From a virus, in the IMG/VR virus record IMGVR_UViG_3300007765_000061, positions 1 through 20,036 of that record: a stretch of DNA of 20,036 nucleotides. One strand, given 5' to 3'. This document shows, piece by piece, positions 5,587 to 20,036 of this stretch (its first letter is position 1; the number at the start of each line of letters is the position of its first letter). Under the pieces are notes generated by a model. The model searched no databases. It saw only the letters and a list, made by a program, of their open reading frames with translations, and had not been told where the DNA came from. The position numbers and the translations under genes are program-made.

Positions 5587-7173
5587 TTAAATTCTTTGTC
5601 CAGTTATCCAGCTTCTTACTATAGAACGACCTAAAAACTCTTTCTTTTCTTCTATCGTTTCTTCAAATTTATCAGAATCAAACTTAACACTTAACGGCGC
5701 TCTTGCGTTAACTATTGAATACCAAAGCCCATCAAGTATGTCATCGTTCTTACCTTTTGGAAAATGAAACATCTCATCTACCAAGTCACTATGATTCTTT
5801 TTAATAAACAATTTACCCCGATTAACAACCGGGCAAAGCAAGGATTCTAGCCTATCTTCTTTTTTTATCCCTGTTGGCGGTCTTACGCCCCTCGCAATAC
5901 CGGGAGCCATTTTTCTATCCTTACCAGAAAGCTCATTTACCGCATCCTTTATTATTCCCTGCGCCCCAACATGCTCTACATTCGCACGACGCATTGGCTG
6001 ATATTCTCTGGCATACTGAAATATTTTTCTTGGCATATCATATAATGGTATATGCTCTCTGAAAATATCTATTACATAGATATTCTTATCACTGTCAATA
6101 CCAGCAATAACAATAACTTGATAATCATGCTTGGCTGAAGATTCATAGGCCAGATCAACTCCCATATATACGTTAACAGGAATTGCGTCTTCCTTTGTGA
6201 GGATATATGCTTGATTGTTTCTAGATTTAAACTGCCCATCAAAATAATTAATCCTATCCACTTTAAATTTAGCCGTCTCCAGATCGCGAGCATCATTCAT
6301 ATACTCCTGAGCAAACTTGTGTAACTGACCAACGTATTCGTAATCTTTTCTTATGCTTTCTATTTTTTTCTTTGGGAAATATGAAGGCCATAAGGGCTTA
6401 CCATCCTCTAATACCCTATGGAAAACCATCTCCCATGTATAATCTTCATTATTTTCTTTCGCCTCCAGATATCCATCGTATATACCTTGCAAAGCAGAAT
6501 CATAATGAACAATAGTTCCTATAAGCCATATGGAACCTTCATTGCCTTTTGATTCCTCCAATGCCGGATAAACAGTAGACATAAGCCATTCTTTAATTTC
6601 TTTTCGCCTCTCCGGGGTTTTTGTATTCAACTCAGATTCAAAATCATCAAGAATAATTTTAGTATACCTAAGACCAAGTTCCGATCTTCCACGCAACCTT
6701 TGGCTTGTACCCTTTGCGATTATTCTATCACCCTTTGAAGTGGTAATTTCTTTTTCAGTCCACTTGTTTCCAGCCATATTACCAAAATAATAATTCAAAG
6801 CAGGATTTAATTCAATATGATTTTTAATATACTTAAGATGATCTATAGCCTGCCCCTGCTCTTCCGATACCCAAGCTGCAAACTCATTTTTACCCTTTGG
6901 GTTAAAACATATCCTATGTAAAAGCGCAGCTTTGGCCATAGTCGATTTAGTGTGCCCGCGAGGTAAAACTAGGCACAATCTTCTAATTGTGCTGTCGAGA
7001 AACCTCTCCCCCACCTCATAGTGAAATGGAGCAGGTTTAGATTTCATAAAATCTTCTGGAAGAAACAGTTGTCCAAATGCTACCAAATCTTTTGATACCA
7101 TATTCAAGACTCTTTCCTTCTCGTCTAAATTATTTGGTATTATGTTGAACTTTTCTATTGTACCAATCTCCAT
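5587..7173 (-). CDS. terL: Terminase large subunit (packaging ATPase and nuclease)
   Basis: The DNA-packaging motor and headful or cos nuclease. Numbered from the GTG at 7194, the ATPase domain shows Walker A PRGHTKST (78-85) and Walker B IILDDFE (180-186). The RNase H-like nuclease domain has VYMGVDLAY with D347, VEHVG with E407, and KNDDILDGLW with D484, D485 and D488. Total length is 528 residues from the chosen ATG, normal for TerL. The start is uncertain: the frame is open to a GTG at 7194, I choose the ATG at 7173, and an ATG at 7101 has the best ribosome site (AAGGAAAG). The first two choices overlap the upstream cyclotransferase-like gene by 65 or 44 bases; the third lies 28 bases beyond it. 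Confidence 0.93.
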   Translation of the reverse strand: MEIGTIEKFNIIPNNLDEKERVLNMVSKDLVAFGQLFLPEDFMKSKPAPFHYEVGERFLDSTIRRLCLVLPRGHTKSTMAKAALLHRICFNPKGKNEFAAWVSEEQGQAIDHLKYIKNHIELNPALNYYFGNMAGNKWTEKEITTSKGDRIIAKGTSQRLRGRSELGLRYTKIILDDFESELNTKTPERRKEIKEWLMSTVYPALEESKGNEGSIWLIGTIVHYDSALQGIYDGYLEAKENNEDYTWEMVFHRVLEDGKPLWPSYFPKKKIESIRKDYEYVGQLHKFAQEYMNDARDLETAKFKVDRINYFDGQFKSRNNQAYILTKEDAIPVNVYMGVDLAYESSAKHDYQVIVIAGIDSDKNIYVIDIFREHIPLYDMPRKIFQYAREYQPMRRANVEHVGAQGIIKDAVNELSGKDRKMAPGIARGVRPPTGIKKEDRLESLLCPVVNRGKLFIKKNHSDLVDEMFHFPKGKNDDILDGLWYSIVNARAPLSVKFDSDKFEETIEEKKEFLGRSIVRSWITGQRI

Positions 7174-7495
7174 TGGGTATTTCTTCAAATACACTTACTA
7201 AATCAAGCAACCTTGGGCCAGCAACATATACCCAAGCCTTTTGCTTCTTACCAGAATCTAATTCCACATCAACCTTGACTCTTTCATAAAGACCAATCTT
7301 TATACCTTCATATAAATCATATTGAGCTAAGTCTTCGCCTGTAACATCGTGCACCTCCACCACAGTTCCACTTCCTTTGTAATCCTGTATCATTGCCGGA
7401 AATCTTTGATGCCCTGGATAAACAAGAGATGTATTCTTTATTCTTCCAATATTTTTATTTCCATTCCGAAGCGTTCCATAAACGGCTAACTTCAC
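7130..7495 (-). CDS. Gamma-glutamylcyclotransferase-like (AIG2/GGCT fold) protein
   Basis: A 121-residue protein with the family signature at its N terminus, VYGTLRNG (residues 5-12), which binds the gamma-glutamyl part of the substrate. The conserved acidic site is LAQYDLYEGIKIGLYER (56-72), in which E63 of YEG is the expected catalytic glutamate. The C-terminal IPNGDW motif is also typical. Members release 5-oxoproline from gamma-glutamyl-amines or peptides. The start is GTG, overlapping the previous gene by four bases (GTGA), with AAAGGTAAAGAA as its ribosome site. A place between the two terminase genes is odd for a metabolic enzyme. The family is also known as a neighbour of Amidoligase_2 genes, two of which lie 8-12 kb away here. 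Substrate is unknown. Confidence 0.82.
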   Translation of the reverse strand: MKLAVYGTLRNGNKNIGRIKNTSLVYPGHQRFPAMIQDYKGSGTVVEVHDVTGEDLAQYDLYEGIKIGLYERVKVDVELDSGKKQKAWVYVAGPRLLDLVSVFEEIPNGDWYNRKVQHNTK

Positions 7496-9751: not shown

Positions 9752-10105
9752 TTATTTTCCCCATACCTTCTCCGCAACCAATTGAGCTATCACACCATAT
9801 ACAGACAAATCCTTAAATGCATCCATATATGTTTCATTGTCAACAGCATTTTCACCACGATGCTTGACAATTATATTTTTAAGCCTGTTCACTTTATCAT
9901 TCATTCGAATTACCAAAGCAGTTAAGGCAAACATCCTGTCTTCATCATTATCCAAGTCGCCTCCAAGAGTTATATTCCCACAACCATAGTCGTATTGCTT
10001 CTTACAGAATAACTCATACTGCTCTTTAGTTATATCCGAGAATCTTTTCATCATTATCGGATAACCAGCCTCAATAGCTTTTACTACTTTTTGGTTTTTC
10101 GCCAT
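9752..10105 (-). CDS. Nmad1/DUF1599-like nucleotide-modification-associated protein
   Basis: A 117-residue helical protein with CKKQYDYGCGNI near residues 34-45, a central RMNDKVNRLKNI (68-79), and an acidic C-terminal block, ENAVDNETYMDAFKDLSVYGVIAQ. This pattern (KQxDYG, then DKxxRL, then ExxxDxxxDLxxYG) is that of the DUF1599 or nucleotide modification associated domain 1 family, found in many phages beside nucleotide-altering enzymes. Its chemical role is not established. GGAG precedes the ATG, and the start overlaps the HExxH gene upstream by 22 bases. An all-alpha NTP-pyrophosphatase (MazG-like) relation is an alternative. Confidence 0.65.
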   Translation of the reverse strand: MAKNQKVVKAIEAGYPIMMKRFSDITKEQYELFCKKQYDYGCGNITLGGDLDNDEDRMFALTALVIRMNDKVNRLKNIIVKHRGENAVDNETYMDAFKDLSVYGVIAQLVAEKVWGK

Positions 10106-10377
10106 AGAAATTCTCCAACACCTAATTGATGGAATCCATTAGAGAGTGTTTCAATCACTCCTTCGTCATGCTCACATCCATTGTTTACTAAAATACAATG
10201 AATTACTTCATGAAGAAATGTTTCGTTCCTGCGGGACGTTACAAGCTTCTCATCTAAGAATATCTCGCAAGTCCTAGGATTGTTCATTCCAAATAAATAT
10301 CTATTTTCAGAACCAGATTTTTCACCATCCATAAACCTAACCTTATAATCATGTCCTCCAATTTCTATTCTTCTCAT
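10084..10377 (-). CDS. Minimal HExxH metalloprotease-like protein, 97 aa
   Basis: A single catalytic-core protein with NETFLHEVIHCIL (H56, E57, H60) and a downstream glutamate helix, GVIETLSNGF (E76 a candidate third zinc ligand), the layout of small gluzincin-like or ImmA/IrrE-like phage peptidases. The N terminus RRIEIGGHDYKVRF is a beta hairpin common in that group. No helix-turn-helix is fused. The start is an ATG with AAGGAG five bases before it, 12 codons inside the longest open frame; the upstream alternative has no ribosome site. This ATG overlaps the previous stop codon (ATGA). The substrate might be a repressor or another phage protein, which is inference. Confidence 0.72.
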   Translation of the reverse strand: MRRIEIGGHDYKVRFMDGEKSGSENRYLFGMNNPRTCEIFLDEKLVTSRRNETFLHEVIHCILVNNGCEHDEGVIETLSNGFHQLGVGEFLWRKTKK

Positions 10378-10538
10378 TTTTTCTCCTTTTCTTCTTTTCT
10401 CATTGATCCCCACGCTGGAACAGTGCAGGGCATTACACCAGCCTTAATGGGCCTTTCTTTTTTTCTTACTTCATCTATTACGCTTTCCAAAAATTTTATC
10501 TTTTTTGGTGTGCTATCTTTATTTATACCCATAATCAT
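10374..10538 (-). CDS. Small basic hypothetical protein, 54 aa
   Basis: Sequence begins MIMGINKDSTPKKIKFLESV and ends in a charged helix (GSMRKEEKEKK). No family is recognised. It is coupled at both ends: the ATG overlaps the PP-loop gene's stop (ATGA), and its own TGA overlaps the ATG of the HExxH gene. The longer frame opens at a GTG at 10562 inside the upstream gene, but the ATGA junction makes the shorter form more likely. Possibly an adaptor of its neighbours; unproven. Confidence 0.6.
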   Translation of the reverse strand: MIMGINKDSTPKKIKFLESVIDEVRKKERPIKAGVMPCTVPAWGSMRKEEKEKK

Positions 10539-11311
10539 ATACCGCAGTATCCCTCTTCGCACATAAAAAGCTCTTCTTGGTCTTCTTGAAAATATGCATT
10601 TTCAATTGGCTCTCTAGACTCGTGCAAATACAGTTTATCTTTCAGTCCTTTCTTAGTTACGTTTCTTATCTTTTTATCAACCTTTACAACCTTTTTCCAT
10701 TCTTCTGGATAATTTAATTTTATATCTTTCCACTGCCTATTGCTATGATACGGACAAAATACACAAGAGGACTTCTTAACTCCAATAAACCCTTTTTCTT
10801 TTAAATATTTTTCACAATCATTTCTTGTTATCTTTTTTTCTATCAATGGATATTTATATGTAATTCTATGTAATACTGATAATTTCATTCTTTCTATTTC
10901 GTCTAAAGATATGCCAAGCCAAACTTCGGTGGGATGCATTTTTTGATATTTCCTCAATCCTTGCAATCTTCTTATCTCGCCAATAACAGTATTTACTTTA
11001 TATTCTCCAGTACACTGCCTTCTTATCATTCCCCCGCTTTCGGTAAAAGCAGGAATAGAGGCCCATCTTTTATCATATGAATTTACACCATTTATTATAT
11101 CCTTATACAATGATTTTGTTTTTTTAACAAGACTTATGCCGTCATTGTCTTTCTGCCATTTATTAAGGTCTTCCCACAATTTATATGTATCTGGCAATTC
11201 TGCGCCCGGATCAGCAAATATAGCATAATCAGCTCTTTCTATTTCGCCAAGCGAACTCATTATATACATAGCCGTAGACTGTATACCAAGACCTAAGCTA
11301 ATTATTTTCAT
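10535..11311 (-). CDS. PP-loop ATPase, PAPS reductase-like family
   Basis: A 258-residue adenine-nucleotide alpha-hydrolase. SLGLGIQST (5-13) is the PP-loop that binds ATP pyrophosphate, followed by YAIFADPGAELPDTY (29-43), which is typical of the phage branch of PAPS-reductase-like proteins. Cysteines in RRQCTGE (C100) and SSCVFCPYHSNRQW (C183, C186) could hold a cluster or act in sulfur chemistry. The C terminus adds CEEGYC. Known relatives activate a substrate by adenylation, as in tRNA thiolation or DNA phosphorothioation (DndC). The exact reaction here is unknown, and DndC itself is not claimed. The ribosome site is GGGG close to ATG, and the gene overlaps the preceding one by 14 bases. 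Confidence 0.78.
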   Translation of the reverse strand: MKIISLGLGIQSTAMYIMSSLGEIERADYAIFADPGAELPDTYKLWEDLNKWQKDNDGISLVKKTKSLYKDIINGVNSYDKRWASIPAFTESGGMIRRQCTGEYKVNTVIGEIRRLQGLRKYQKMHPTEVWLGISLDEIERMKLSVLHRITYKYPLIEKKITRNDCEKYLKEKGFIGVKKSSCVFCPYHSNRQWKDIKLNYPEEWKKVVKVDKKIRNVTKKGLKDKLYLHESREPIENAYFQEDQEELFMCEEGYCGI

Positions 11312-15311: not shown

Positions 15312-15461
15312 ATGAGCAGAAAAAAACGTATCCCCTTCCACATTAAACATAATCTCAAACAATTTGAATACAATGGCAGAGTATTCTGGGCTAAGAATAC
15401 TGAGGAGGCTGACGAATACATAGAGAGATTAAAAATCGTAGATAAGAGAGAGAGTAAATGA
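15312..15461 (+). CDS. Small basic hypothetical protein, 49 aa, coupled to amidoligase
   Basis: MSRKKRIPFHIKHNLKQFEY starts the protein, then NGRVFWAKNTEEADEYIERL. AAAAGGAG lies before the ATG. Its TGA overlaps the amidoligase ATG (ATGA), so the two are translated in coupling. The coupling suggests a partner role for the amidoligase, which is inference. Confidence 0.6.
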   Translation: MSRKKRIPFHIKHNLKQFEYNGRVFWAKNTEEADEYIERLKIVDKRESK

Positions 15462-17299
15462 CTGATTGTTTCAATATAAATATTGGTGATACGGTATTGC
15501 TCCCTTCTCGCTCGGGGGATAGATATTATCTCCCCATTAGTGAGGAGGGCGACAGACTTTTAGACCAATTTCAAATTGGGATTGTGGAGGAGATAAAGGA
15601 TGAGCAATCTCAGCTGTTTAATCATCGAGTAAGTTTTGATAGTGATTCAATATGGGTTTGTAAAGAGCAAATTGCATTAGTTTCTGATTTTTTAGATGGT
15701 GAGATAGTATTTAGGGAAAGGCAAATAATTATATTGCCACCAGAATTCTTTAATAGCTCTGGAGATTCGAGAAGGTTTGATTTAGATGGTGTTTCGTCGC
15801 AATATATAGATTTTGCTCTTGTAGTGAAAATTGAGTCAGGTGAAGAAGGAGGTGAAATATTTCTCAAAACCTATTTAGGCGATTTTTCCATGTCTGGAAT
15901 GGAGTTATTAGAAAATGGAGCAATTCCCTTCGATGGTAGATTTCACCTCGATGAAGATATTATAGAGAGCACTCGAATTAGAGATAATTATAAAAATTTC
16001 CAGAATTATATTGCCAGATATGGATTTGATAGAAACGAAGAGTATTATAAGTGTCGTAACTGTTATAATTGGACTGCTGAACGAAATTTATTTCACATTG
16101 GCAACGGAGAATCTTTGTGCGGCTCTTGCGCAGACGATTATCAATATAAATGTTTTGTCTGTCATGGGCAGAAAAGAGTTGTACATATGCAATTCAGAAT
16201 GGTGGACAATGAAAGAGTTTGTAATAGATGTATGGAAACAAGGGTTATTGAGTGCAGGGGCTGTAGAAAATTTCACATTGATGAACCTTGGAGTCGATAT
16301 GGCGGAGACCGGTATTGCGAAAAATGTTTTGAGAATAGAGTTTTAGATGCTATGTCTTCTCCTCCAAGGGCTCTTGGCAGATCAACTATTAGTAAAATAT
16401 CCATAGACCCTAAAAAAGAATTCAGATTAAATAAAAGCAATACTGCTGTAGCCGTTGAAATTGAGGCTATGAATGACCATTTTAATTTTGAGGAAGAAGA
16501 TGCAGATCCATACCTTGAATATCCAAGAGGTTGGAATGATACCTACGATGGTTCGCTCAGTGATGTAAGTGGAAGAGAATTTATGATGCAACCAGAAATT
16601 GGTGATGCTGCTTTTTCAAGAATAAATAGTTTTTGCGATTGGTTGAGAAACAATGATTGGTATGCAGATGACTCTTGTGGTGTTCATGTTCATACTGATG
16701 CTTATTATCTCGGGATAGAGGAGCTTAAGGGGATACTTGTTGTTGGGCGAGCTCTTGAACCAATGATTTATAGTATGTTGCCTGCAAATAGGTTAAAATC
16801 CAGATATTGTAGACCTATGGCCGATATTTCTGTTCATAAGATTGCAGATATTTCATCTGCTAAAGAATTTTCTGATTTATGGTATATTGCAATGAATAAT
16901 ACAGAGGCATCGTCTGATAAATATAATAGCTCCAGATATTGCGGATTAAATATTCACTCAAGATTTTTACATGGCACAATAGAGTATAGATACCATTACG
17001 GAACAATATCTTCGGAGTCGATAAATAACTGGGTTAAGCTTTGTTTGCTTATTTCAGATTTTGGTTCGAGATTGTTCCTTAAAAAGACTACAAAACAATC
17101 TTCAGTATCTAAGAAAATAACAAATTTATTTATGTATAACGAGACAAATGATTATACAGATTATCTTGAGGCTATGGGGGCAAACCACAAATTGATAGAT
17201 TATGTAAAAAATATGATTAACAGACGACACGGGTCAGAAAAACCTATAACCAATCGGATTCTTCGAGAAACATCAGAAGGTTGGATTCAGATTGGTTGA
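15458..17299 (+). CDS. Amidoligase_2 enzyme with N-terminal beta region and triple zinc-ribbon array
   Basis: A 613-residue multidomain protein. Residues 1-180 are a beta-rich part, starting SH3- or KOW-like (IGDTVLLP...GIVEEIKDE). Residues 199-290 hold six CxxC pairs (199/202, 221/224, 232/235, 255/258, 266/269, 287/290). Residues about 325-540 are the glutamine-synthetase-like amidoligase domain, with VAVEIEAM (E334, E336), YDGSLS (D364), GREFMMQP (E374), SCGVHVHTD (H410, H412, D414), RYCGLNIH (N498, H500) and GTIEYRYHYGT (E509, R511, H513). The family joins an amine to a carboxylate using ATP; the substrates here are unknown. A second amidoligase and an amidotransferase lie downstream. A role in host surface or protein modification is inference. 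Confidence 0.88.
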   Translation: MTDCFNINIGDTVLLPSRSGDRYYLPISEEGDRLLDQFQIGIVEEIKDEQSQLFNHRVSFDSDSIWVCKEQIALVSDFLDGEIVFRERQIIILPPEFFNSSGDSRRFDLDGVSSQYIDFALVVKIESGEEGGEIFLKTYLGDFSMSGMELLENGAIPFDGRFHLDEDIIESTRIRDNYKNFQNYIARYGFDRNEEYYKCRNCYNWTAERNLFHIGNGESLCGSCADDYQYKCFVCHGQKRVVHMQFRMVDNERVCNRCMETRVIECRGCRKFHIDEPWSRYGGDRYCEKCFENRVLDAMSSPPRALGRSTISKISIDPKKEFRLNKSNTAVAVEIEAMNDHFNFEEEDADPYLEYPRGWNDTYDGSLSDVSGREFMMQPEIGDAAFSRINSFCDWLRNNDWYADDSCGVHVHTDAYYLGIEELKGILVVGRALEPMIYSMLPANRLKSRYCRPMADISVHKIADISSAKEFSDLWYIAMNNTEASSDKYNSSRYCGLNIHSRFLHGTIEYRYHYGTISSESINNWVKLCLLISDFGSRLFLKKTTKQSSVSKKITNLFMYNETNDYTDYLEAMGANHKLIDYVKNMINRRHGSEKPITNRILRETSEGWIQIG

Positions 17300-17361
17300 G
17301 ATTATTAATACGATGGAGAAAATTTTTGTAACTAAATAAAAAAAAAGAAAAGGAGATACAT

Positions 17362-18537
17362 ATGTGTGGAATTTTCGGATTTGCCAAGCGTGAAGGCTGG
17401 CAATCTGATGCCCAAATGGATAGGATAGAAGATGTTATCAGCAATCTAACCTTTGAATCGGTTGTTAGAGGTGATGATTCTACTGGTCTTGCAATAGCCT
17501 CCCCAAGAGAGCGTTTAGTGTATAAAACACTTAAAGCCTCGGATGAGTTGGTGTGCAGTGACGAGTGGCATGGAATCCTCGAAAGGGTTGATAAGGATAC
17601 CACTATCTTTCTGGGGCATACGAGACTTGCTACTACTGGCGTTGTCACAGAGCGCAACGTTCACCCTTTTGTTAAGGGGAGCATCATTGGAGCTCACAAT
17701 GGTATTATATATAACCATGAAGATATAGCCAAAAAAATAGATAAGTCTGTTCAAGTGGATTCAGAAGTCATATTCGGGCTACTTAATAAAAAGGAAAAAT
17801 ATCAAGAGGTATTCGATCTTCTTGAGGGTGACTTTGCATTAAGCTGGTTTGGGAATGATTACAGGATACTTAATTTAATGCATGAAGAGGGAAGACCTCT
17901 TCACATTGCTTACTGGAAAAAAGCAAGGTGTTTATTTTGGGCATCTACAGAAAATATACTATATCAAGCCTTGAAAGATTCTGGCTTGGTTATTGATATC
18001 GCAAAACTTCCAGTTGATATTATTTATGAGTTTAACACTGCGGAATTTTGGAAATCTTATTCTGTTAGTGAAATCGAAGTAATAACTAATGCGAATTTTA
18101 CTCATAATAAATATGGTTATGGTGGTTACTATAGAGGCTACTCATCTTACTCGCCCAAGTCAACTCCTTGCATAATGTGTGCAAAGGAGGTTTGGTCAAC
18201 AAATGATATTTGTTGGAGATGTAAGAAAGACAATGAGAATACCAAAGTTCCAGAATATAAAATGGACGCTTCGGGCAATTGGACTGTTGTTTGTTCTGTT
18301 TGCAGGAAAAGGAAGCGTTATGATGAAATTACCTATATAGAGGGATTCAACGTTTGTGATATTTGCGATAGCAGGGAAAATGTTGATGATAGTTACGGTG
18401 GTAGAGACTGGAATTGGGGAACGTGTGATTTCTGCGGAGATTGGGACGAGAGAACAATGTCAAAGGGATACAATATGTGTATATATTGTCTCGAGCAAGA
18501 TAAAAAAGCAAATCAAACATGTTTACCTACACAATAA
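17362..18537 (+). CDS. Class II glutamine amidotransferase with C-terminal zinc-ribbon array
   Basis: Begins MCGIFGF, so C2 can become the N-terminal nucleophile after Met removal. The rest of the glutaminase site is present: RGDDSTG (36-42), GHTRLATTG (85-93, R88), AHNGIIYNH (N113, G114) and VDSEVIFG (D133). Residues 1-230 make a full Ntn-hydrolase domain that frees ammonia from glutamine. No synthetase, phosphoribosyltransferase or isomerase domain follows. Instead there are a Tyr/Gly-rich linker (YGYGGYYRGYSSYS) and three CxxC pairs of pairs (270/273 with 284/287, 311/314 with 332/335, 355/358 with 373/376). GGAG precedes the ATG. It probably supplies ammonia to, or hydrolyses amides made by, the neighbouring amidoligases. 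Confidence 0.9.
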   Translation: MCGIFGFAKREGWQSDAQMDRIEDVISNLTFESVVRGDDSTGLAIASPRERLVYKTLKASDELVCSDEWHGILERVDKDTTIFLGHTRLATTGVVTERNVHPFVKGSIIGAHNGIIYNHEDIAKKIDKSVQVDSEVIFGLLNKKEKYQEVFDLLEGDFALSWFGNDYRILNLMHEEGRPLHIAYWKKARCLFWASTENILYQALKDSGLVIDIAKLPVDIIYEFNTAEFWKSYSVSEIEVITNANFTHNKYGYGGYYRGYSSYSPKSTPCIMCAKEVWSTNDICWRCKKDNENTKVPEYKMDASGNWTVVCSVCRKRKRYDEITYIEGFNVCDICDSRENVDDSYGGRDWNWGTCDFCGDWDERTMSKGYNMCIYCLEQDKKANQTCLPTQ

Positions 18538-18550
18538 ATATAGGAGTATT

Positions 18551-18859
18551 ATGACAAAAAAATTAAAAGATAAAAAGAATGCTGTGTTTGTTGGTATAGC
18601 AGGAAAAATACAAATTAAATCAAAAAGTTATGTAATGAGAAAGCTTTATGAGAAGGCTAAAAAGAATCCTTTTATAGCAGATAAATCTTATGAAGAGTAT
18701 ATGGAATACATAAAATCTCAAATTAAATTGTTAGAGGGTATTGAAATAGCTGCGGAGTCAGAAGAAGAGCTTTACAACGCCCTTAAAAGACTTGGGTGGC
18801 TTAAAGAGATTAGCGTCATAGCTGCCTACATAATAACAGCTAACTATGGTATAGCATAG
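18551..18859 (+). CDS. Helical hypothetical protein between amidotransferase and amidoligase, 102 aa
   Basis: The frame is open further upstream, but the true start is the ATG at 18551. A TAGGAG site stands four bases before it, and the earlier part lies inside the amidotransferase gene. MTKKLKDKKNAVFVGIAGKI begins a basic half. A long acidic helical half follows (KSYEEYMEYIKSQIKLLEGI; AAESEEELYNALKRLGWL), and a mildly hydrophobic end. No family is recognised. Its place inside the amidoligase cassette makes it a candidate partner or acceptor. The next gene starts eight bases after its stop. Confidence 0.65.
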   Translation: MTKKLKDKKNAVFVGIAGKIQIKSKSYVMRKLYEKAKKNPFIADKSYEEYMEYIKSQIKLLEGIEIAAESEEELYNALKRLGWLKEISVIAAYIITANYGIA

Positions 18860-18867
18860 GAGTAAAT

Positions 18868-20036
18868 ATGCCTAAAAAGATTGAATGCGATTTCTGTGAG
18901 AGGAAATTTGACAGAGAAGAAATGCGTGAAGCGCCAGATTGTGGCGATATACTCTGCCAGGGTTGTTTTGGAGATAATTATATTGACTGTTGCGGTTGTT
19001 CTGATACCGTTCACATGGACGAATCGTATTATTCAGATGCTTATGGTGTGTCTTATTGCGGGGATTGCTTCTGGGAAGATCATTTCGAGTGCGAGCCTTG
19101 CGGAGATTATGTAGCCACAGAATATGGTTATTGGTCTGAAGGTGACGGTCAGTATTATTGTGAAGGTTGTTACGACAATTACGCTCCCCATAATGTGGAT
19201 TTAAACAGTTTTTCAGGTAGGGGTCTTTCGAGGTCGCAAAAAGGCAATACATTTTCTGTAAATAAATTTGAAAGATTAGTTGGGGTAGAGATAGAAACCC
19301 TCGGAATAATGGAGGCAGATGATGAACACCCAAGTTCTTTTAGAAGAAGTTGCGACGGCAGTATAAGCGGAGATTATGGATTTGAATACATATCCAATCC
19401 AATGAGCGGGGATTATCTTTTTGAAGAAATAGATAAAATGAGTGATTATCTTTGGCGTAGAGATTACGATATTAATAGAAGTTGCGGACTACATATACAT
19501 ATAGATGCACGAGATTTATTTTACAAAGAACTGGTTGGAATAATGCTTGTAGCAAAATCTTTTGAAGAAACAATTTTCAGCATGATGCCAAATTCGAGGC
19601 AATCATCAAACTGGTGTAGAAAATTTCCGCTCAATAAGAGAAGTATAAGAAATATAGCAAGTGATTCTGAGTTTATTGAATATTGGTATGATGCCTGTGA
19701 AAGCAATCCCAGTTTCGATAAATACAATGACGCAAGATATCACGGACTGAATCTACATGCAAGAGTTTACCTTGGCACGATAGAATTTAGATATCATTCT
19801 GGAACCAACAATCCTACAAAAATTAAGAACTGGATTACTATATGCCAGTCAATAGTTGAAAAAGGTATAACGCTAAGCAAGGAGCTTGGCAAGAAACCTG
19901 AAGATTGGGATGCCAATACACATTTACTTATGAATTCAAGCGGAGATTTAGGCTTACAAGCGTTTATAGAAATACTTGAACTTGATACCATAAAAGATTA
20001 TATAGTAAGGAGAGTACGCAAATTTGACCGCCCAAG
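18868..20036 (+). CDS. Second Amidoligase_2 enzyme with triple zinc-ribbon array (3' end cut off)
   Basis: 389 codons are visible and the frame is still open at the window edge. Six CxxC pairs (7/10, 30/33, 41/44, 64/67, 75/78, 98/101) open the protein without the beta region seen in the first amidoligase. The amidoligase domain follows: LVGVEIET (E141, E143), SCDGSIS (D163), FEYISNP, SCGLHIHIDA (H209, H211, D213), RYHGLNLHAR and GTIEFRYHSGT (E306, R308, H310). All the motif positions seen in the first copy are conserved, so both are probably active. AGGAG precedes the ATG. The gene is a paralogue, not a fragment, and shows no frameshift. The first copy ends about 75 residues after the equivalent position. 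Confidence 0.88.
   Translation, partial: MPKKIECDFCERKFDREEMREAPDCGDILCQGCFGDNYIDCCGCSDTVHMDESYYSDAYGVSYCGDCFWEDHFECEPCGDYVATEYGYWSEGDGQYYCEGCYDNYAPHNVDLNSFSGRGLSRSQKGNTFSVNKFERLVGVEIETLGIMEADDEHPSSFRRSCDGSISGDYGFEYISNPMSGDYLFEEIDKMSDYLWRRDYDINRSCGLHIHIDARDLFYKELVGIMLVAKSFEETIFSMMPNSRQSSNWCRKFPLNKRSIRNIASDSEFIEYWYDACESNPSFDKYNDARYHGLNLHARVYLGTIEFRYHSGTNNPTKIKNWITICQSIVEKGITLSKELGKKPEDWDANTHLLMNSSGDLGLQAFIEILELDTIKDYIVRRVRKFDRP

Follow-up and report, generated by a model that had tools for sequence, protein, structure and literature searches.

The virus record IMGVR_UViG_3300007765_000061 ends in a run of four genes, AmdA, GAT, P102 and AmdB, which probably forms a variant of the phage amidoligase/glutaminase/cyclotransferase set, in which ATP-dependent amidoligases fed by a glutamine amidotransferase (GAT) would amidate carboxylates, probably those of cell-wall peptides. 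We hold this reading with moderate confidence. Amide-forming chemistry is well supported by the enzyme families to which the predicted proteins belong, and the most likely target, by analogy with cassettes of the phiEco32/RIO-1 type, would be the cell-wall peptide side chains of the host, or the precursors of these. The window analysed here covers the whole IMG/VR record (20,036 bases), which is linear and represents part of a tailed-phage genome.

The four genes lie on the + strand in an operon-like run with gaps of 62, 13 and 8 bases, much as the initial annotation of the sequence had described them: two amidoligases flanking a glutaminase gene and a 102-residue gene, in one direction and with short gaps. 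AmdA (15458-17299, 613 residues) and AmdB (18868-20036) are paralogues of the Amidoligase_2 family (PF12224, 1.3e-23 and 1.1e-23). They enclose GAT (17362-18537), a class II glutamine amidotransferase of the Ntn glutaminase type with a Cys-rich C-terminal tail (PF13522, GATase_6, 4.7e-15), and P102 (18551-18859), a small helical protein of 102 residues that is specific to the cassette. AmdB runs off the end of the record after 389 residues (18868-20034); its relatives, such as that of locus L006, end at 385 residues, and therefore it is probably short of only a few residues. A gamma-glutamyl(amine) cyclotransferase of the AIG2-like family (7130-7495, - strand; PF06094, 1.3e-13) is encoded elsewhere in the same window.

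Amidoligases and glutaminase

AmdA and AmdB score 84.6 and 84.8 bits against PF12224, for which the curated cut-off is 22, and are 33% identical over 379 residues, Cys-rich part included. AmdA consists of an N-terminal region without family assignment, three tandem four-Cys modules at about 199-290 and an amidoligase core at about 320-540, while AmdB begins with its three four-Cys modules and continues into the amidoligase domain. The initial annotation had expected a glutamine-synthetase-like (GS-like) fold, and structure prediction, made for AmdB only, agrees. In the AlphaFold2 model (mean predicted local distance difference test score 90.7, from an alignment of 36 relatives) AmdB has the glutamine-synthetase/YbdK fold, its top Foldseek matches in the PDB being gamma-glutamylmethylamide synthetase (GMAS), YbdK and glutamine synthetases (E 2e-5 to 1e-3). 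The template modelling scores are modest, at 0.25-0.42, in part owing to the extra Cys-module domain of the query.

The catalytic motifs that the initial annotation judged intact are retained in the aligned homologues. The presumed catalytic residues (AmdB numbering E141, E143, D163, S165, E173, H209, H211, R290, N295, E306, R308 and H310) fall in columns (ExE, D-x-S, E, HxH, R, N, ExRxH) that are invariant in 117 sequences, comprising 51 from the A position (three outgroup phages included), 48 of B type and 18 single-copy sequences. H297, beside these columns, has two exceptions, both among A sequences. By its sequence, GAT is likewise a complete class II glutamine amidotransferase with intact catalytic residues, as had been claimed: 22 relatives all retain Cys2, Arg88, Asn113-Gly114 and Asp133, and its best sequence match in the PDB is the glutaminase domain of GlmS.

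The Cys modules set these proteins apart from the known phage amidoligases sampled. Each amidoligase carries six CxxC pairs with a 34-residue period, arranged as three tandem four-Cys modules (positions 199/221, 232/255 and 266/287 in AmdA; 7/30, 41/64 and 75/98 in AmdB), and no CxxC motif was counted in ten sampled known phage amidoligases, the exception being the ctUh1700 protein. The "zinc ribbons" of the initial annotation are better described as these modules; its suggestion that the paired form is undescribed appears to hold, within the literature and libraries searched, for the pair of Cys-module amidoligases together with P102. The modules would be expected to bind zinc, and their profile weakly resembles LIM domains, with most of the similarity owed to the cysteines. 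Modules of this kind are common in protein- or nucleic-acid-binding parts. The GAT tail in the window has CxxC motifs at 270, 284, 311, 332, 355 and 373. Among relatives, the tails of GATs from loci with P102 contain 2 to 7 such motifs, and those of the single-amidoligase branch hardly any; two CxxC motifs occur in the GATs of phage tf (LUZ24-type) and of an Alcaligenes phage. Homology between this tail and the amidoligase modules was looked for; the likeness found is limited to cysteine spacing, and the window GAT gives no match.

Conservation and history of the cassette

Searches of IMG/VR with single window proteins returned one near-identical partial contig only, and alignments were needed for wider retrieval. 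Three such retrievals were made, the queries being the amidoligases (75 loci, from the best 80 of 318 matches), P102 on its own (61 loci) and GAT on its own (80 loci, the best of 209 matches). The three sets share contigs, and the P102-only and GAT-only sets impose no selection for an amidoligase. The order AmdA-GAT-P102-AmdB was found in 49 loci of the amidoligase-retrieved set, with GAT and one long amidoligase in 18. Among the 59 newly fetched loci of the P102-only set, 53 have the full order, 4 have GAT-P102-AmdB and 2 are cut (four loci of this set were scored 'AAGpA' solely because GAT also matches the amidoligase profile). The co-occurrence proposed initially is also seen with GAT as the only query: all four genes stand in order in 51 of the 79 newly fetched loci, the remainder being GAT-P102-AmdB (6), GAT with a single long amidoligase (20) and cut loci (2). 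Dozens of diverged contigs keep both the gene order and the residues, and the cassette is therefore not a chance arrangement. Six cellular-genome loci held distant amidoligases only, and neither GAT nor P102 was found in those stretches.

P102 precedes an amidoligase in all 61 loci retrieved with it, follows GAT wherever the sequence extends that far, and was never found elsewhere. Within the records of the GAT-P102-AmdB loci no second amidoligase was found, except in one 80-kb record with two, 44 kb apart. Given these locus orders, and the GAT-P102-AmdB loci that have no second amidoligase, the constant core is GAT with a PF12224 amidoligase, P102 is part of the B-type branch and AmdA is a frequent yet dispensable addition. 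The idea that P102 tracks the duplicated amidoligase state was discarded, as P102 also occurs in loci without AmdA. In several such relatives the place of AmdA, upstream of GAT, is taken by a pyrimidine dimer DNA glycosylase of family PF03013 (L194:5535-5951 and L114:4425-4841, and likewise in L195 and L202; the PF03013 match was checked on L194). Contigs of 64 and 80 kb (IMGVR_UViG_3300030101_002855, loci L043 and L048; 3300030708_000851, locus L194) contain the cassette region twice, at a distance of about 44 kb, and look like assembly fusions of two phage genomes.

The amidoligase-core tree places the A, B and single-copy sequences in clusters of their own, A and B separating across all phages, with the deepest branches unresolved. 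A recent tandem duplication giving AmdA and AmdB was rejected on this clustering, which makes the duplication an old one, with both active sites retained ever since. For all cassette genes, pairwise distances correlate (r 0.74-0.94) with those of the DnaB, nuclease, terminase-subunit and cyclotransferase genes, and the cassette therefore behaves as part of the phage backbone, vertically inherited. The ratio of non-synonymous to synonymous change (pN/pS) is below 1 for all four genes in 7/7 compared pairs, being lowest for P102 in 6/7 (0.085-0.235) and highest for AmdA in 5/7.

P102

P102 gave no match above chance against Pfam, PHROGs, PDB sequences, PDB folds or phage genomes searched by tblastn. 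A match to DUF5312 was not accepted; 8/33 members match with a best value of 9e-5 and the window member scores 13 bits against a cut-off of 25. Its model has four predicted helices, with a confident core at about 21-81 and a hydrophobic C-terminal helix that is not placed. K9, G15, K25, Y33, N39-P40-F41, L78 and W83 are invariant, and the C-terminus is variable, ending in A, V, S, T or G. These variable ends do not fit P102 as a Pup-like tag, that is, a small protein whose conserved C-terminal Glu or Gln is used by a GS-fold ligase. The hydrophobic C-terminal segment passes a strict threshold in 9/33 P102 members against 35/1380 background open reading frames, which is only suggestive of a membrane anchor. 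We prefer a scaffold role for P102; a carrier or substrate role is possible.

Comparison with known systems

Phage amidoligase cassettes have been predicted for more than 15 years, and the literature found holds predictions of function only. The initial annotation correctly attributed to Iyer, Aravind and colleagues the proposal that Amidoligase_2 proteins work with GAT-like or AIG2 proteins; it did not connect the AIG2-like cyclotransferase in the window with the cassette. The novelty that it implied for a phage amide-forming pathway is not sustained, since related cassettes have been described for many podoviruses (PMC5498523; PMC3890496; PMC10580990). According to PMC5498523, which cites Iyer et al. 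and Hardies et al., RIO1-like podoviruses carry a seven-gene peptidoglycan modification cassette whose genes include a gamma-glutamyl amidoligase, a second amidoligase, an ATP-grasp enzyme, a gamma-glutamyl cyclotransferase and a glutamine amidotransferase. The same paper places the cassette also in phiEco32, 7-11, PA11, tf, MR299-2, LUZ24, PaP3 and CW02, and reports the prediction that it changes the host surface and stops superinfection (Iyer 2009; Hardies 2013). UFV-P2 has the same gene set (PMC3890496), OM43 phages have an amidoligase with a GAT (PMC10580990) and some prophages have two amidoligases and a cyclotransferase (PMC11318856). An arrangement of this kind was also seen at first hand in phage tf, phage ctwe8250 and an Alcaligenes phage.

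With the cassettes of phiEco32, LUZ24, tf, PA11, RIO-1 and PSA-HP1 the window shares an Amidoligase_2 near a class II GAT, an AIG2-like cyclotransferase, a position on the early/replication strand and a podovirus-like genome. However, the phiEco32/LUZ24/RIO-1 type combines one Amidoligase_2 with a type-2 COOH-NH2 ligase and an ATP-grasp enzyme, whereas the window has two Cys-module Amidoligase_2 paralogues and P102, and neither of the other two enzymes was detected. Caudoviricetes sp. ctUh1700 (MW202637, Manatee Spring) encodes a class II GAT immediately preceded by a long amidoligase whose N-terminal part is Cys-rich, but the amidoligase is single, about 28% identical, and P102 is lacking. 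An amidoligase and a GAT also occur together in the Arthrobacter phage Wheelbite/Laroye group (adjacent in Wheelbite) and in the OM43 phages MEP401/402, the latter as described in PMC10580990; unlike those of the window, the amidoligase of Wheelbite is single and without CxxC modules. Among gut and soil phages, Faecalimonas NatCom_26447 and Bacillus 031MP004 have an Amidoligase_2 with a gamma-glutamyl cyclotransferase nearby, and C. clostridioforme prophages have two phrog_2443 amidoligases, but in the stretches viewed no GAT is annotated, and the two phage proteins checked have no Cys modules. Gamma-glutamylmethylamide synthetase, YbdK and glutamine synthetase (PDB 9qur, 1r8g, 8oon) have the amidoligase-domain fold in common with the window proteins, at 10-14% identity and in another domain context. 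The general phage amide-forming cassette is already known; paired Cys-module amidoligases with P102 appear to be undescribed in the literature and sequence libraries searched.

The cyclotransferase is a likely functional partner of the cassette, although it is on the other strand. Its family is present in 33/37 related records, and its gene and that of the large terminase have 65 bases in common, a pairing that recurs in many relatives. The type-2 COOH-NH2 ligase was found in none of 37 related records as PF14395 and in none of 29 relatives as phrog_3815 (positive control OK172329, 5e-73), and these records may be fragments. The ATP-grasp family phrog_2599 was absent from the 29 relatives (positive control OK172329, 1e-90), a search confined to this one ATP-grasp family. 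The cassette belongs to the broad amidoligase/GAT/cyclotransferase group and is not identical with the classical cassette.

Proposed mechanism and alternatives

From the chemistry of these families, GAT would free ammonia from glutamine, and AmdB, the constant partner, would use ATP to activate a carboxylate as an acyl-phosphate, with ammonia or an amine captured as the amide. AmdA would carry out the same reaction on a second carboxylate or substrate, or in a second step, and the cyclotransferase would take off gamma-glutamyl groups, releasing them as 5-oxoproline. The enzymes are probably kept together, or on their substrate, by the Cys modules and P102, and the modification may serve to hinder superinfection or to tune lysis. 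Some observations weigh against this scheme. AmdA is common yet dispensable in some phages, being gone or replaced by the glycosylase in some relatives; the cyclotransferase lies 8 kb from the cassette on the opposite strand; and the classical type-2 COOH-NH2 ligase and ATP-grasp enzyme are undetected, so that the product may differ.

An unlikely alternative is that the cassette amidates or aminoacylates an acidic side chain of a host protein for takeover of the cell, rather than the cell wall. The position of the cassette on the non-structural strand, just upstream of DNA nuclease and DnaB genes, would fit this, as would the general tendency of Cys modules to occur in binding parts, but published readings of the sister cassettes prefer the cell surface. 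We think it quite unlikely that P102 is a carrier or substrate on which the amidoligases build or amidate a group, comparable to the LysW amino-group carrier, the butirosin acyl carrier or a protein tag. Its occurrence solely between GAT and AmdB, the invariance of Lys9 and Lys25 and a constraint exceeding that of the enzymes in 6/7 compared pairs all speak for it; against it, the C-terminus varies and has no conserved Glu, Gln or Gly-Gly, P102 matches no carrier fold, and related cassettes of GAT with one amidoligase lack it altogether. The most far-reaching version, in which P102 is a dedicated carrier or substrate bearing a peptide-like group built or amidated by two glutaminase-fed GS-fold amidoligases, and the whole a previously undescribed protein-bound amide-synthesis or tagging system, strikes us as very unlikely. 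An auxiliary metabolic set supplying small gamma-glutamyl or amide metabolites for nitrogen recycling is similarly improbable. The nearest solved folds do make gamma-glutamyl amides, and the excerpted text of PMC10945688 proposes that a phage with similar genes helps nitrogen use, but the growth effect given there is not linked to those genes by mutation, and a simple metabolic gene would need neither a second ancient paralogue nor Cys modules nor a protein specific to the cassette.

The compact version of GAT, AmdB and P102 with optional AmdA, in which the usual two extra ligases are undetected, could allow the reaction to be reconstituted with only three or four proteins. P102, being cassette-specific and strongly constrained, offers a handle on the organisation of the enzymes or on their target.

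Genome setting

The left part of the window carries structural genes on the - strand (an SU10-type capsid, a P22-like portal and the large terminase), and the right part is a + strand run with the cassette at its end. A scan for promoters and terminators gave no more sites than in shuffled sequences, and the cassette had no match in a search of anti-phage defence families. For DNA-base modification, no supporting gene was noticed in the window or in annotated neighbours. The sign of the guanine-cytosine skew switches at about 12.5-12.8 kb, at the junction of the - strand structural block and the + strand early block. A PAPS-reductase-like protein is encoded at 10535-11311, with matches to phrog_424 (8.5e-38) and to the PADLOC model of SspD (8.9e-11), the latter a family of phosphorothioation-type systems. 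At 10084-10413 lies a candidate small SprT/IrrE-like metallopeptidase, with a sub-threshold Pfam match, yet conserved in 47 loci.

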